This document shows, piece after piece, positions 6,166-19,950 of a stretch of DNA of 20,035 nt. This DNA is from a virus, in the IMG/VR virus record IMGVR_UViG_3300030116_001097, positions 1 through 20,035 of that record. One strand, 5' to 3'. Position numbers and translations under genes: made by a program. Numbering within the stretch: position 1 is the first letter of the stretch; every line of letters begins with the position of its first letter. The notes below the pieces were generated by a model, which was given only the letters and a program-made list of their open reading frames with translations, had not been told where the DNA came from and ran no database searches.

Positions 6166-6737
6166 TGGCAATACCAACTTCTGAGCTACAATCTTTAAAA
6201 AATAAATCAATTATTGAACTTTATTCACTAACTTTGATTTCTGCCCTTCATGGTTCGACTGATGTGACAAGGTTTCATTCTGGGGTTGGTATGAATAGCA
6301 ATGCAAATATAATATGGCAGGGCAACACATATACAAAATTTCCTGTTGTAGCAGATGGTTTTGAATATGTAGGCAAAGGAAGTTTGCCAAGACCGACATT
6401 AACAGTTTCTAATACTTTAGGAACTATCACAGCATTAATGGCATCAGTTAATAGCACAACACCATTCAACGATTTACAGGGAGCCAAATTGATTAGACAT
6501 AGAACAATGGCTCAATTTCTTGACGCTGCTAATTTTCCATCTAATATAAATCCTTTTGGAACCCCATCAAGTTCAACAGAACTGCCCCAAGAAATTTATT
6601 TTATTGATAAAAAAAATGTAGAGAACAGAGACGTTGTACAATTTGAATGTATCTCAGCTTTAGACTTTGAAAATATAAGAGTGCCAAAACGACAAGTCAC
6701 AAGAAAAGATTTCCCATCAGTAGGTCAGTTTGCATGA
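6165..6737 (+). CDS. Minor tail protein, lambda gpL-like, lacking the C-terminal Cys cluster
   Basis: The 190-residue product follows the gpM homologue, as in lambda. It has SIIELYSLTL at the N-terminus, a central GFEYVGKGSLPRPTLTVSN (about 65-83) and a C-terminal VVQFECISALDFENIRVPKR (157-176), the gpL pattern of an ELxSPLDLxxxxxPxR strand-loop. Lambda gpL is about 232 residues and carries four C-terminal Cys that bind an iron-sulfur cluster. Here the protein stops at RKDFPSVGQFA, where that region would begin, and has one Cys (162) only. The stop region overlaps the gpK ATG at 6734, so there is no hidden continuation. Confidence 0.7.
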   Translation: MAIPTSELQSLKNKSIIELYSLTLISALHGSTDVTRFHSGVGMNSNANIIWQGNTYTKFPVVADGFEYVGKGSLPRPTLTVSNTLGTITALMASVNSTTPFNDLQGAKLIRHRTMAQFLDAANFPSNINPFGTPSSSTELPQEIYFIDKKNVENRDVVQFECISALDFENIRVPKRQVTRKDFPSVGQFA

Positions 6738-16668: not shown

Positions 16669-16841
16669 TGGATTTACAACAAAGAAAAGAACAATTAATT
16701 AAAGAAAATCAAGAAGCTATTTCTGAATATGAAAAAGCAATACAGGCTGCGAATATGTTTAAAGCAAAAGCCTTTTCATGTCAGGAAAGATTAAAAGAAA
16801 TAGAAATGTTGATTGTAGAGTTAGAAGAAAAAGTTAATTAA
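16668..16841 (+). CDS. Small coiled-coil protein, 57 aa
   Basis: ATG 16668 overlaps the preceding TAA. The product begins MDLQQRKEQLIKENQEAISE and is one continuous charged helix with heptad-like spacing of Leu, Ile and Ala, ending IEMLIVELEEKVN, with one Cys (38). Short coiled-coil proteins of this kind commonly follow tail fibre or lysis genes in phages. The function is unknown; a role as a fibre or spanin partner is possible but not shown. Confidence 0.6.
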   Translation: MDLQQRKEQLIKENQEAISEYEKAIQAANMFKAKAFSCQERLKEIEMLIVELEEKVN

Positions 16842-16959
16842 TCTTTTCGATTTGTCTAGTCATCATTCCAAGAGTTACATATAAGGGAGCTAATGCACAT
16901 AATCCGCAGAACGTTATAATTGTACAAGGTACTAACGCACGAAGTAGGGCTGTTCTCAT
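16834..16959 (-). CDS. Small membrane protein, 41 aa, minus strand
   Basis: On the minus strand an ATG (16959-16957) opens a 41-codon frame ending TAA at 16836-16834. It fills the only sizeable gap in this part of the window, 16842-16957. The product (MRTALLRALVPCTIITFCGL at the start) has a strongly hydrophobic segment at about residues 5-30, then a short charged tail (MTRQIEKIN). It resembles, from memory, small membrane proteins of marine cyanophages. The start shares the palindrome CATG with the start of the next plus-strand gene. There is no strong Shine-Dalgarno, so the call is moderate. It could be holin-like, but that is speculation. Confidence 0.5.
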   Translation of the reverse strand: MRTALLRALVPCTIITFCGLCALAPLYVTLGMMTRQIEKIN

Positions 16960-17155
16960 GGCAAGGATTTCTCAAATATTATCTATTTTAAGTTTTATAA
17001 TCAGCGCGTCAATGTTAGGCGCTGGCGTTTATGGTTACATGATGGTAACAAGTGATGATTTTAAAGAAAAAATGATTCAACAAGTTATTGAAAAAATACC
17101 CTTACCAGAAGTTCCAAAACTACCAAAATCAACAGGCAACGTAATTCCATTTTAA
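16958..17155 (+). CDS. Small membrane-anchored protein, cyanophage-type
   Basis: The 65-residue product starts MARISQILSILSFIISASML and has one N-terminal transmembrane segment (about 7-31). A helical charged part follows (DDFKEKMIQQVIEKIPL), then a Pro-rich end (PLPEVPKLPKSTGNVIPF). A GTAGGG element lies upstream at 16945-16950. I recall close relatives with the same MARxSQILSILSF start next to a Pro-rich repeat protein in marine T4-like cyanophages, which is also the arrangement here. The function is unknown. It is separated from the next gene by one TAA in the same frame. Confidence 0.65.
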   Translation: MARISQILSILSFIISASMLGAGVYGYMMVTSDDFKEKMIQQVIEKIPLPEVPKLPKSTGNVIPF

Positions 17156-17158
17156 ATT

Positions 17159-17887
17159 TTGGAAATACCAGAAATAAATATTCCAAACATAGATATTCCA
17201 GAACCTATCCATATTGAACCGCCTATCGTCCTTGATACGCCTGTTTTTATTGATATGGGCGTTCCTGTCATTGATGCGCCTTGCGCTGTTGTACGCGATT
17301 CTCTGACGAGTGGTAAAGATCATTTCAACAATGACCCAGATGGAAATGTTGCCTTATGCGATCACAACGCACCAATTTATTTTGCACCCGATTATTCGGC
17401 AACAGCAAAAATAATTACACCAAAACAAAACACACAAACTGAAGCGCCAGAAATACCAGAAATAAAAACGCCAGAAATTCCAAAAACAAAAGAAAACAAT
17501 GAAGATACTGTTATAAAAGAAAAAAAAATTGATTGCCCTGCAAAAGACCAACAATTTAGGCTGAACGATGTAAGAAATGCAGAAGCGCAAGAAAAGGTTG
17601 TCGGGTTTGAAGTAATAGACGGAAAATGTATCGAAATATGGGCTAAAACTGATTTTGTCGATAAATACCTTCCATCTTCATCTGTTGTCGCAACGACCTT
17701 AGTAGTAACTATTGTCGCAACATCCGCCGCAACTGCTACGCCTTTTTTAACTAAATTACTAAAACCCCTATTTAAACAAATTATAAATCGAATTAAAAAA
17801 CTACTAGGAAAAAAATCAGGTACAAAATTTAATTCTTCTTCTCGTTTGAAGAAGCAGAAACTTCTTTCAAAGAATGTTGATGATTAA
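17159..17887 (+). CDS. Pro/Ile-repeat protein with C-terminal membrane segment, cyanophage-type
   Basis: The 242-residue frame has no early ATG. TTG 17159 (or ATT 17156) is the likely start, because residues 2-25 already show a repeat of I-P-[ED]-I-x-I-P type (EIPEINIPNIDIPEP) that the first in-frame ATG at codon 33 would remove. Residues 55-80 have DPDGNVALCDHNAPIYFAPD and 125-160 have CPAKDQQFRL and KVVGFEVIDGKCIEI. A hydrophobic segment (about 175-197) and a Lys-rich amphipathic tail follow. I recall this DPxGNxxLCDG, CPxxxQ and KVxGFExxGxxC arrangement from unnamed proteins of marine T4-like cyanophages. Cysteines at 42, 67, 126 and 157 are spaced for possible disulfides. The function is unknown. 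The 3' end overlaps the convergent gene by 59 bases. Confidence 0.65.
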   Translation: MEIPEINIPNIDIPEPIHIEPPIVLDTPVFIDMGVPVIDAPCAVVRDSLTSGKDHFNNDPDGNVALCDHNAPIYFAPDYSATAKIITPKQNTQTEAPEIPEIKTPEIPKTKENNEDTVIKEKKIDCPAKDQQFRLNDVRNAEAQEKVVGFEVIDGKCIEIWAKTDFVDKYLPSSSVVATTLVVTIVATSAATATPFLTKLLKPLFKQIINRIKKLLGKKSGTKFNSSSRLKKQKLLSKNVDD

Positions 17888-18539
17888 TCAATGTATTGCT
17901 TGGATTTGTTAATTGAACATCTTCGCATAATTTATAATATTTTGACGATTTTTTGAAGTTATAACCCTTGGATAAAAGATCGCCGCACGTTTTCAAACGT
18001 CCGAGTTCTAGCGCATACATATTGTCATTTATTCTTGCTTGTATTAAATCTGATTGTCTTTGTTGCGCTTCGCGGCATAAGCGCACCGCTTTTCGATCAA
18101 GTGAAATATTCCAAGATAAACTAATTCCCGGCGAAATATTATATGTATCTTTTTGCGCTGTTCTTATTGTTTTATAACCAATAATTTGGCCGGGGTTGTC
18201 GGGGTCGCCATCGCCTATTGTCACGCCGTTTGCATCTGTCGCGCCTTCTGTATCTTTTACTGAATATATTGGGTCAAGATAAAAATCTTGATAAGGTTTT
18301 GTAAATGAAGCCGATGAAGTGACAAAAGGTTGGATGACTAATGTATCAGATTGACAAACTACAGTATTACCGCCGACTTGATTTTGAAATTGTCTTGTCG
18401 GCATATTCATTACGCCCAAATTCGTGACACTTCCAGACGAATTTGAAACTGGATTGTTTGTCATATTGGTGTTGGCATAACTTGGAAACTGAACAGAAAA
18501 AAATAATATTGCGCCTGCTATCTTAATTTCTTTTATCAT
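17829..18539 (-). CDS. Exported protein with four Cys, cyanophage-type, unknown function
   Basis: The 236-residue protein has an N-terminal signal peptide (hydrophobic AGAILFFSVQF, likely cleavage after SYA at residue 22). The mature part has MNMPTRQFQNQVGGNTVVCQ (45-63), IQPFVTSSASFTKPYQDFYLDP (69-90), DNPGQIIGY (114-122) and a helical C-terminal half with LDRKAVRLCREAQQRQ and LELGRLKTCGDLL. Cysteines 62, 155, 185 and 205 could form two disulfides. I recall this pattern from proteins of marine T4-like cyanophages. It is the last gene of a minus-strand operon, overlapping the upstream gene's TGA by 4 bases. Confidence 0.65.
   Translation of the reverse strand: MIKEIKIAGAILFFSVQFPSYANTNMTNNPVSNSSGSVTNLGVMNMPTRQFQNQVGGNTVVCQSDTLVIQPFVTSSASFTKPYQDFYLDPIYSVKDTEGATDANGVTIGDGDPDNPGQIIGYKTIRTAQKDTYNISPGISLSWNISLDRKAVRLCREAQQRQSDLIQARINDNMYALELGRLKTCGDLLSKGYNFKKSSKYYKLCEDVQLTNPSNTLINHQHSLKEVSASSNEKKN
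17835..17854. terminator. Inverted repeat in the convergent overlap, possible bidirectional terminator
   Basis: CTTCTTC (17835-17841) and GAAGAAG (17848-17854) are a perfect 7-bp stem around TCGTTT. It lies in the overlap of the convergent 3' ends. It has no T-run directly after the stem on either strand, so termination is only a possibility. Confidence 0.25.
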
Positions 18540-18973
18540 TGCGTAAACGTGCTTGTCGATTCAGTTACAGATTGGACTTCAATAGTGCGATCTATATGGA
18601 CATAAGAATTTAGCCCCGGCCCAATATATGATTCGTGATATTGTGTCGCCGCGCCTGCCGTTGTTTGCTTCCATTGGGGTTTAGTAGATAAATTTATTCC
18701 TGTTGTTGTTGACGTAACGCCGTTAATTGTTTGTGTTGCCCCTGCAATCGCTTCAGGGCTGATTGAACCGCCTGCCGTGACCGCTTCGACATTGGTTCCG
18801 CCTGTTGTGTACTGATACCCCGTAGAATAAGAATACGACTGAATTATTTCCCGTGTTGATTGTGAACTGGTTGTTCGACTTATACTACTACCCGCAGAAA
18901 AATTTGGAATTACGGGAATTGCAAAACAGGGCGAACTGGACAATAAAAAAAGGCTTATAAATAAGCGCCGCAT
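18536..18973 (-). CDS. Exported Ser/Thr-rich protein, cyanophage-type (QTTAGAAT motif)
   Basis: The 145-residue product begins MRRLFISLFLLSSSPCFAIP with a clear signal peptide, probably cut after CFA (residue 18). The mature part is rich in Ser, Thr, Gly and aromatics, low in charge and probably all beta (STGYQYTTGG, QTINGVTSTTTGI). Residues 101-118 (WKQTTAGAATQYHESYIG) share a motif with the neighbouring upstream protein. The end is VQSVTESTSTFTQ. It overlaps both neighbours by 1 and 4 bases. I recall related secreted proteins in marine T4-like cyanophages. An outer surface or virion fibre-like role is possible; the function is not known. Confidence 0.65.
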   Translation of the reverse strand: MRRLFISLFLLSSSPCFAIPVIPNFSAGSSISRTTSSQSTREIIQSYSYSTGYQYTTGGTNVEAVTAGGSISPEAIAGATQTINGVTSTTTGINLSTKPQWKQTTAGAATQYHESYIGPGLNSYVHIDRTIEVQSVTESTSTFTQ

Positions 18974-19482
18974 TATTCGATTTCGATTGAACTTGTAATT
19001 GAACCTGTCACGCTTGAACCCGCTGCGCCGGGGCTTAGTGTAATTGTTCCGCCTGCTACTGAAGTTATTCCGATTGATTGCCCTGAACTAGACCCGCCTG
19101 AATATGTGATTGTGTCGCCTGTTACTGGTAAAGAAGAGACAACGCCAGAAGAAACACTTGCTGTTGTTACTACCGCATCCCCTTGGATAAATGATTCCGA
19201 AAAACTTGTTGCGGCGCCTGCCGTGGTTTGTGTGTAAGACCCTGTTCCGTGTGTAGCGGCCACGCCTGTCAATACCGAACTGTTATCAAGTGCGGGCGAA
19301 TCTAAATGCCCCATTGTTCCCGCGGTAATCCCTGTCGAACTCATTGAATAGGTCGAGCCGATGCGCTTTGCCTGCGAATAGCTACCATCAACCACACCTT
19401 GAGCCGATGCCGTTATTTTGTGGACATAGCCCGCCTGCAATGGCAAAGGAAACAAAAATAAAACAAAAAATAATTTTTTCAT
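18973..19482 (-). CDS. Exported Gly/Ser/Thr-rich protein, cyanophage-type (QTTAGAAT motif)
   Basis: The 169-residue product starts MKKLFFVLFLFPLPLQAGYV, with a typical signal peptide cleaved after LQA (residue 17). The mature chain starts HKITASAQGVVDGSYSQAKR and is beta-rich and low in charge, with YTQTTAGAATSFSESFIQGD at 83-102 and a Gly/Ser/Val-rich C-terminus ending TSSIEIE. The central motif matches the next gene downstream, so the two are probably distant paralogues. The stop and the next ATG overlap by one base (TAATG on the minus strand). GC content by eye is higher than in the tail genes. Confidence 0.65.
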   Translation of the reverse strand: MKKLFFVLFLFPLPLQAGYVHKITASAQGVVDGSYSQAKRIGSTYSMSSTGITAGTMGHLDSPALDNSSVLTGVAATHGTGSYTQTTAGAATSFSESFIQGDAVVTTASVSSGVVSSLPVTGDTITYSGGSSSGQSIGITSVAGGTITLSPGAAGSSVTGSITSSIEIE

Positions 19483-19724
19483 TTGATACCTACTTTTGTA
19501 TTCTTATTATCTACTATAACTGGTTTTTTTTGGTTGCCATTCTTACCTTTCACAGACACACCATAAGAACTTGCGATATTCCCCACGAGGCCAGCCGCAA
19601 AAGTGTCTAATCTTATTTTTTCCATATATCCAAGAGTCATAACCGATAAACTCCATCCAAGAATAATTATGCGAACAAAATGACCGACATAATCCCGACT
19701 TTCCTTTTCTTCTTCTTCTTCCAT
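19479..19724 (-). CDS. Small membrane protein heading the minus-strand operon, possibly holin-like
   Basis: The 81-residue product has an acidic start (MEEEEEKESRD), then YVGHFVRIIILGWSLSVMTL (12-31), one good transmembrane segment. A second moderately hydrophobic stretch spans about 41-56 (DTFAAGLVGNIASSYGV), and a charged tail ends NKNTKVGIK. I recall proteins with DFVGHVVR-type starts, also followed by a short membrane segment, in marine T4-like cyanophages. The size and topology would allow a holin, but this is unproven. It is first in an operon of four overlapping genes, so it is probably coexpressed with the three exported proteins. Confidence 0.6.
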   Translation of the reverse strand: MEEEEEKESRDYVGHFVRIIILGWSLSVMTLGYMEKIRLDTFAAGLVGNIASSYGVSVKGKNGNQKKPVIVDNKNTKVGIK

Positions 19725-19788: not shown

Positions 19789-19950
19789 ATGATTCGATTT
19801 ATTAAGCCAATACTGAAGTTCTTCGTCAAATCCAATGCTGTGAAATCGCTTGTGATTGGATTGCTTGAGGACTATGCGGCATCCACGGAGACAGACATTG
19901 ATAATGAGATTGTCGCATTGGTTAAGGAAAAGTTATGGCCTGTTACATAA
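19789..19950 (+). CDS. Small protein, 53 aa, unknown function
   Basis: I chose ATG 19789 over the upstream TTG 19765 because it starts the pattern MIRFIKPILKFFVKSNAVKS that I recall from short marine phage proteins (MIKF[IL]KP-type start). The product has an amphipathic hydrophobic N-terminal helix and an acidic segment STETDIDNEIVALVKEKL. It could associate with membranes. The function is unknown. The gene is divergent from the minus-strand operon and overlaps the next small frame by 17 bases. Confidence 0.55.
   Translation: MIRFIKPILKFFVKSNAVKSLVIGLLEDYAASTETDIDNEIVALVKEKLWPVT

Follow-up and report, generated by a model that had tools for sequence, protein, structure and literature searches.

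A gene cassette for predicted envelope proteins in a lambda-type siphovirus and in cyanophages of other tail types

Many ocean cyanophages carry a compact cassette of small genes whose products are predicted to act at the host cell envelope. One copy lies in the 20,035-base IMG/VR record IMGVR_UViG_3300030116_001097, which was analysed over its full length and is referred to here as the window. The window encodes head-tail connectors, a tail terminator, a major tail protein, a tape measure, minor tail proteins and a J-like protein. From this set of genes, the host phage is judged to be a lambda-type siphovirus of Prochlorococcus type, in agreement with the lambda-like tail described in an earlier sequence-only reading of this DNA. 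The window also shares 81% DNA identity over about 1 kb with the Prochlorococcus siphoviruses MED4-117 and MED4-184. The cassette follows, on the 3' side, the gene for the J-like protein and other genes of the fibre region, and consists of two plus-strand genes convergent with a four-gene minus-strand operon. The open reading frames announced by that reading, for a membrane protein, a Pro-repeat protein and an operon encoding one membrane protein and three proteins with signal peptides, are all present (lengths in amino acids, aa; profile E-values in brackets):

16958 to 17155, plus strand: 65-aa predicted inner-membrane protein, phrog_568, T4-GC 414 (phrog_568, 3.8e-9)
17159 to 17887, plus strand: 242-aa Pro-repeat protein, phrog_570, T4-GC 234 (phrog_570, 1.8e-35)
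17829 to 18539, minus strand: 236-aa predicted exported protein, phrog_848, T4-GC 235 (phrog_848, 9e-59)
18536 to 18973, minus strand: 145-aa predicted exported protein, phrog_650/DUF6322, T4-GC 236 (phrog_650, 4.8e-38; PF19847, 5.3e-28)
18973 to 19482, minus strand: 169-aa predicted exported protein rich in Gly, Ala, Ser and Thr, phrog_564, T4-GC 237 (phrog_564, 5.2e-26)
19479 to 19724, minus strand: 81-aa small membrane protein, DUF6450, phrog_721/21865, T4-GC 218 family (PF20048, 1.8e-6; phrog_21865, 3.6e-10)

Matches of the six proteins to PHROG and Pfam families, with E-values from 4e-9 to 9e-59, leave hardly any doubt as to which cassette this is. In comparison with close relatives, the ratio of nonsynonymous to synonymous substitution rates (dN/dS) ranges from 0.03 to 0.25 in all cassette genes but DUF6450, whose divergent alleles give 0.3-0.65. 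From these values, all the cassette genes are judged to be real, with coding far above chance and purifying selection. The operon is tightly packed: the 81-, 169-, 145- and 236-aa genes are joined in turn by the start/stop overlaps ATGA, TAATG and ATGA. Additionally, the 3' ends of the 236-aa and 242-aa genes overlap by 59 nucleotides (nt), and a tail-to-tail overlap of phrog_570 and phrog_848 is seen in 70 of 76 loci.

The cassette itself is not new; what is new here is its setting. Sullivan et al. 2010 (PMC3037559) described a mobile cluster in 15 of 16 cyanomyoviruses, made up of T4-GCs 218, 219, 234, 235 and 237 and a 'plasmid stability' gene. This publication, with the T4-GC labels that GenBank gives for genes of S-SSM7, Syn1 and S-SM1 and that name the same families as those of the window, establishes that the cassette was already known in cyanomyoviruses, where it was left unexplained. 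Searches of phage records by tblastn returned 409 records with the 236-aa protein and 369 with the 145-aa protein, and the window proteins also find S-SSM7, Syn1 and others. Together with the PHROG and Pfam matches, this bears out the statement in the sequence-only reading that the families are those of T4-like cyanophages, where they co-occur as one syntenic cluster.

The window shares with the Sullivan cluster its protein families (homologues of GC234-237, the plasmid-stability gene and GC218 are all present) and its convergent order, with 414/234 against 235, 236 and 237. It differs in that DUF6450 heads the minus arm rather than the plus arm, that GC219, which lies between the plasmid-stability gene and GC234, is absent (as it is from MED4-184), that phrog_848 starts by an ATGA overlap and not inside phrog_650, and that the T4 late promoter motif is lacking. 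In view of this distinct layout, the missing GC219 and a separate clade, the term 'myovirus-type', applied to the cassette in the sequence-only reading, is not supported.

The location of the cluster differs among T4-like genomes, as reported in PMC3037559 and as seen here in S-SSM7, Syn1 and S-SM1, and the same paper suggested that the 'plasmid stability' gene may confer mobility. Such observations would suit a self-mobile cargo kept by that gene and having no fixed phage function, an explanation that is hardly credible here. Although phrog_568 is labelled 'plasmid stability' in cyanophages, the PHROG label is a name alone: the protein consists of one transmembrane (TM) segment and a Pro-rich tail, no toxin, antitoxin or partition family was matched in Pfam above cut-off, all genes are under purifying selection and their order is nearly fixed.

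This order, phrog_568 and phrog_570 on the plus strand convergent with phrog_848, phrog_650 and phrog_564 on the minus strand, is found in 229 of 230 loci, which are mutually related, so that counts are not independent; where a member is missing, the locus mostly lies at the end of a contig. In 120 loci (the siphovirus/podovirus class), DUF6450 is the first gene of the minus arm, and in 46 (the T4-like class) it is on the plus arm; phrog_568 is present in 178 of the 230.

The cassette occurs, on the evidence of gene sequences and order, in cyanophages of all three tail types. Among siphoviruses, it is carried by the isolated cyanosiphoviruses MED4-184 and MED4-117, where it is annotated solely as hypothetical, the P-HS2 record matches, and many siphovirus contigs, at least, carry it among the matches listed in two scans of viral contigs. 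The two MED4 phages have the six families, the order and the place after the J and fibre genes in common with the window, whereas their cassette proteins are only 29-37% identical to its own. It is also present in the 208-kb genome of S-SKS1, which we take to be a siphovirus. In podoviruses, it is found in the T7-like phage AP013546 (Oinezvirus) and, in reduced form, in the P-SCSP1 podoviruses, in the same order as in the window and 3' of the tail-fibre region; P-SCSP1 differs in lacking a recognisable phrog_564 and phrog_568 and in having a phrog_570-like protein without Cys residues. In S-SKS1 and these podoviruses, too, the cassette genes are labelled just hypothetical. Podovirus typing of contigs with PF12236 and AP013546 proteins gave no match anywhere and is uninformative. 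No description of the cassette outside myoviruses was found in the literature searched.

A scan of cellular genomes with a single peptide pattern, which could miss distant host homologues, gave seven genome-contig matches, five of which (L243-L246 and L249, the remaining two being L247 and L248) have T4-like genes close to the cassette; no convincing host copy was found among them. One match, L245 (NZ_RMVE01000006.1, 188,235 bases), is filed as Nonlabens xiamenensis. Beside its cassette lie gp41, uvsX, gp43, regA and gp44, with 62-73% identity to S-SM1, and from its genes it looks like a cyanophage genome within a bacterial assembly.

The history of the cassette was followed in a FastTree phylogeny of concatenated phrog_848, phrog_650 and phrog_570, rooted at the midpoint and weak in its deep branches. 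T4-like copies form one clade, with S-SKS1 inside it; the window falls inside a siphovirus clade, apart from the T4-like one, and the podovirus AP013546 groups with other siphovirus contigs. Because the window is placed among siphovirus contigs, a recent myovirus origin of its cassette is not supported by the tree. Of the earlier proposal that a module moves between phage types, the crossing of phage types is supported, but the acquisition of a myovirus cassette by this siphovirus is not. Recent exchange is apparent elsewhere, in the position of S-SKS1 within the T4-like clade and in swapped DUF6450 alleles. Specifically, the window and its close relatives are 90-99% identical in phrog_564 and 90-100% in neighbours on both sides, and only 27-41% in DUF6450. 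Near-identical flanking genes around a divergent DUF6450 mark the latter, at the sequence level, as an allele exchanged between phages. The nearest named relative of the window allele is in the P-SCSP1 podoviruses. The contig L005 and seven others carry the allele of MED4-184, whose phrog_564 is merely 37.5% identical, and L030, by reading of the sequences, has an allele of T4-like type.

The predicted proteins divide into membrane and exported groups. The 65-aa protein has one N-terminal TM segment (residues 7-23), a Pro-rich tail, PLPEVPKLPK, and the C-terminal end STGNVIPF. The 242-aa protein has a TTG start, IPEINIPNIDIPEP-type repeats, four Cys residues, a C-terminal TM segment (about 176-192) and a basic tail, and is without a signal peptide. 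The two genes are in the same frame, 3 nt apart, with a single TAA between them; readthrough of this codon was considered and rejected, since spacing at the TAA is not conserved among relatives, some of which have insertions. Across its family, DUF6450 shows by hydropathy two TM-like hydrophobic segments and a Lys-rich tail.

Signal peptides of the 169-, 145- and 236-aa proteins were read by eye as MKKLFFVLFLFPLPLQA, MRRLFISLFLLSSSPCFA and MIKEIKIAGAILFFSVQFPSYA, with the mature parts beginning at G, I and N, respectively. By a crude rule, they are also predicted in 84 of 99 proteins of the phrog_564 set (which also includes phrog_650 members), 43 of 50 of phrog_650 and 44 of 55 of phrog_848. 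In the phrog_848 alignment, four Cys are invariant and a C-terminal HxH nearly so; four such Cys would be expected of an oxidised periplasmic domain. The 145-aa protein ends in SxFxQ. Since the MED4-184 member of phrog_564 also matches phrog_650 (5e-4), these two families appear, by profile, to be related.

Structure models were obtained with AlphaFold2. That of phrog_848 is weak (predicted local distance difference test, pLDDT, 69; predicted template modelling score, pTM, 0.31), with a beta part and a 42-residue helix; that of phrog_650 is fair (pLDDT 82) and contains two strands of about 24 residues each. The best BFVD matches of the latter are phrog_650 homologues. Sequence searches of the PDB returned nothing real, the antibody matches of the Ser/Thr-rich profile reflecting composition.

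Two functions have been weighed against these models. The first is that phrog_564 and phrog_650, once exported, form a structure outside the cell or attached to the virion, for example fibres or a decoration added at lysis. The long strands, the Ser/Thr/Gly-rich sequences and a weak shape likeness of phrog_650 to a tail protein of Staphylococcus phage Andhra (E 2.6e-3) would suit it, but no Foldseek match is significant, virion assembly takes place in the cytoplasm, and in the GenBank record of S-SM1, a phage with a measured virion proteome, the exported cassette proteins are all labelled hypothetical, so this function is quite improbable. The second, more improbable still, is an auxiliary pore or uptake device that alters envelope permeability for nutrients or ions during infection. 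Beta-rich exported proteins with inner-membrane partners would suit such a device, as would a faint resemblance in shape between phrog_650 and long beta-barrel pores; however, these fold matches have E-values of 0.01-0.2 and template modelling scores of about 0.2, the strands of phrog_650 are mostly polar, unlike those of a transmembrane barrel, and no known transporter or porin family was matched in profile searches.

In T4-like loci, the start of phrog_848 takes an unusual form. No ATG, GTG or TTG lies near the signal core of the protein, and its frame stays free of stops across the final 53 phrog_650 codons in 53 of 54 distinct loci, as compared with 3.1 expected under synonymous redrawing; these loci were chosen because they have no start nearby, a choice that itself favours long open frames and on which the test therefore partly depends. 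The other frame of the same stretch is open in 0 loci (expected, 1.8). A conserved ATG is located inside phrog_650, 166 or 172 nt before its stop, and in 59 of 60 cases (26.3 expected) the codon preceding a conserved Trp has A as its third base. Example junctions are those of L001, L002, L003, L082 and L250. It is therefore probable, from these reading frames, that T4-like phrog_848 (GC235) starts inside phrog_650 (GC236) in another frame, making the stretch dual-coding, and that it probably carries about 55 extra basic residues before the signal core. The annotation varies: S-SM1 has the same 172-nt overlap, S-SSM7 omits phrog_650 and Syn1 truncates phrog_848. No discussion of the dual-coding stretch was found in the literature consulted, though it is partly visible in GenBank annotation. 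In the window, phrog_848 has a plain ATGA start.

The T4 late promoter core, [AC]TAAATA, was sought between -50 and -15 of gene starts, with expectation by shuffling. In T4-like loci, it precedes the minus-arm head phrog_564 in 26 of 34 cases (0.94 expected) and the plus-arm head DUF6450 in 20 of 37 (0.74 expected); internal genes are at chance (phrog_570, 0/41; phrog_650, 1/41), as are phrog_564 (0/100) and DUF6450 (1/95) in the siphovirus/podovirus class. S-SM1 provides a partial control: of its 19 early/middle genes, 18 are without the motif, and the late gene gp22 carries TATAAATA, but gp23, gp3 and gp21 show no motif within 70 nt, and its own GC237 also lacks it. The talC gene of S-SM1 (L250, position 49061), counted as early/middle, has the core TCTAAATA at -31. 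From the late promoter motif, we infer that both arms are expressed late in T4-like phages.

Two further small genes flank the cassette:

16834 to 16959, minus strand: 41-aa microprotein with one TM segment (MRTALLRALVPCTIITFCGLCALAPLYVT...), divergent from the 65-aa gene
19789 to 19950, plus strand: small protein phrog_2738 (IRFIKPILKFFVKSNAVKSLVIGLLEDY...) (phrog_2738, 1.4e-19)

The microprotein matches no database family, yet it is kept in dozens of siphovirus loci (45-87% identity in siphovirus contigs, 59.5% in MED4-184) with dN/dS of 0.13-0.24, and on this conservation it is probably a real gene, which may or may not be a cassette member. In MED4-184, the corresponding gene (41-43 aa, single TM segment) is unannotated. 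The gene for phrog_2738 adjoins the cassette in siphoviruses and P-SCSP1 (MED4-184, 6171-6335; P-SCSP1, 34139-34300) and probably lies outside the cassette proper. Both the microprotein and phrog_2738 (48%) are closer to their MED4-117/MED4-184 counterparts than the cassette proteins are.

The presence of the same cassette in all three tail types points to an envelope task common to many cyanophages, and the cassette probably serves a need of many ocean cyanophages at the host cell envelope. Its occurrence in T4-like, siphovirus and T7-like phages, together with the lack of a convincing host copy, argues for a task shared by phages and not for a metabolic gene taken from hosts. Action late in infection is most likely, and among the roles suggested, the late promoter motifs in T4-like phages favour a late one.

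A tentative preference, at rather less than even chances, is given to a late trans-envelope complex that acts at the outer membrane and helps progeny leave the cell. For this model, topology, complex formation, the holin-like role and egress are all inferred. Three proteins would sit in the inner membrane: phrog_568, DUF6450 and phrog_570, the last being Pro-rich and anchored by its C-terminus, with a Pro/Cys part that the positive-inside rule would place in the periplasm; phrog_848, phrog_650 and phrog_564 would be exported by Sec. Made late, these proteins could together span the host envelope and assemble into one complex, in which DUF6450 would be a holin-like two-TM protein, phrog_570 and phrog_568 would bridge the periplasm, and the beta-rich proteins that are exported would take the place of spanins by acting on the outer membrane. 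DUF6450 resembles class II holins in its two TM segments and charged, Lys-rich C-terminal tail, whereas its profile matches are just PHROGs of unknown function and DUF6450. Similarly, phrog_570 is Pro-rich with a C-terminal TM segment, as in u-spanins, whereas the cassette has no lipobox, detected homology or adjacent endolysin.

Ranked close behind, because the cassette lies beside fibre genes in several phages, is remodelling of the cell surface, in which the proteins coat or block receptors on the infected cell and thereby cause superinfection exclusion or prevent progeny from sticking to debris. This is possible, if on balance unlikely. In the window, MED4-184, AP013546 and S-SSM7, the cassette adjoins tail-fibre genes or lies just 3' of them, but in S-SM1 and Syn1 it is far from such genes. 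Three of its proteins are predicted to be exported, and a late timing would fit the protection of progeny. Cor of N15 and phi80, Lom of lambda and Llp of T5 are thought to block receptors; cor and lom follow J, and llp adjoins the T5 receptor-binding gene. They resemble the cassette as exported proteins encoded beside tail-fibre genes, and differ in being single small genes that have no inner-membrane partners and no detected homology to it. A six-protein set in near-fixed order, serving phages with probably different receptors, is unlike such single-gene systems, and no known exclusion family was matched in profile searches.

Several observations weigh against the egress complex. By the crude rule, no lipobox was found among family members of phrog_848, phrog_650, phrog_564 and phrog_570, and only 1 match in 49 phrog_568 proteins, so this is not a classical spanin. 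PHROG and Pfam searches with the cassette proteins gave no lysis family and no holin or spanin profile, Foldseek searches with the phrog_848 and phrog_650 models gave no significant PDB match, and the cassette genes include no peptidoglycan hydrolase. In siphoviruses, the minus operon opposes the direction of the late tail genes, and in the window 8 sigma-70-like sites were counted, as against 10.1 in shuffles, so that no promoter is assignable. Furthermore, S-PM2 is without the cluster (PMC3037559), which makes the cassette dispensable for at least one cyanomyovirus. No lysis gene was found among the 12 MED4-184 proteins scanned, a sample too small to weigh either way, and literature searches on DUF6322 and on spanins or lysis genes of cyanophages gave, among the entries listed, nothing concerning these genes. 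Conservation across tail types, the lack of convincing host copies and the late promoter motifs speak for a late task that these phages share. The complete picture, of an egress machine common to three tail types that replaces spanins, has its DUF6450 swapped between phages and uses an internal start in T4-like members, is unlikely to hold in every part.

The cassette ranks among the gene sets without an assigned function that are widespread in ocean cyanophages. Its presence across tail types and the late motifs turn what had been mobile hypothetical genes into a hypothesis on what cyanophages may do to the envelope of their picocyanobacterial hosts as infection ends.

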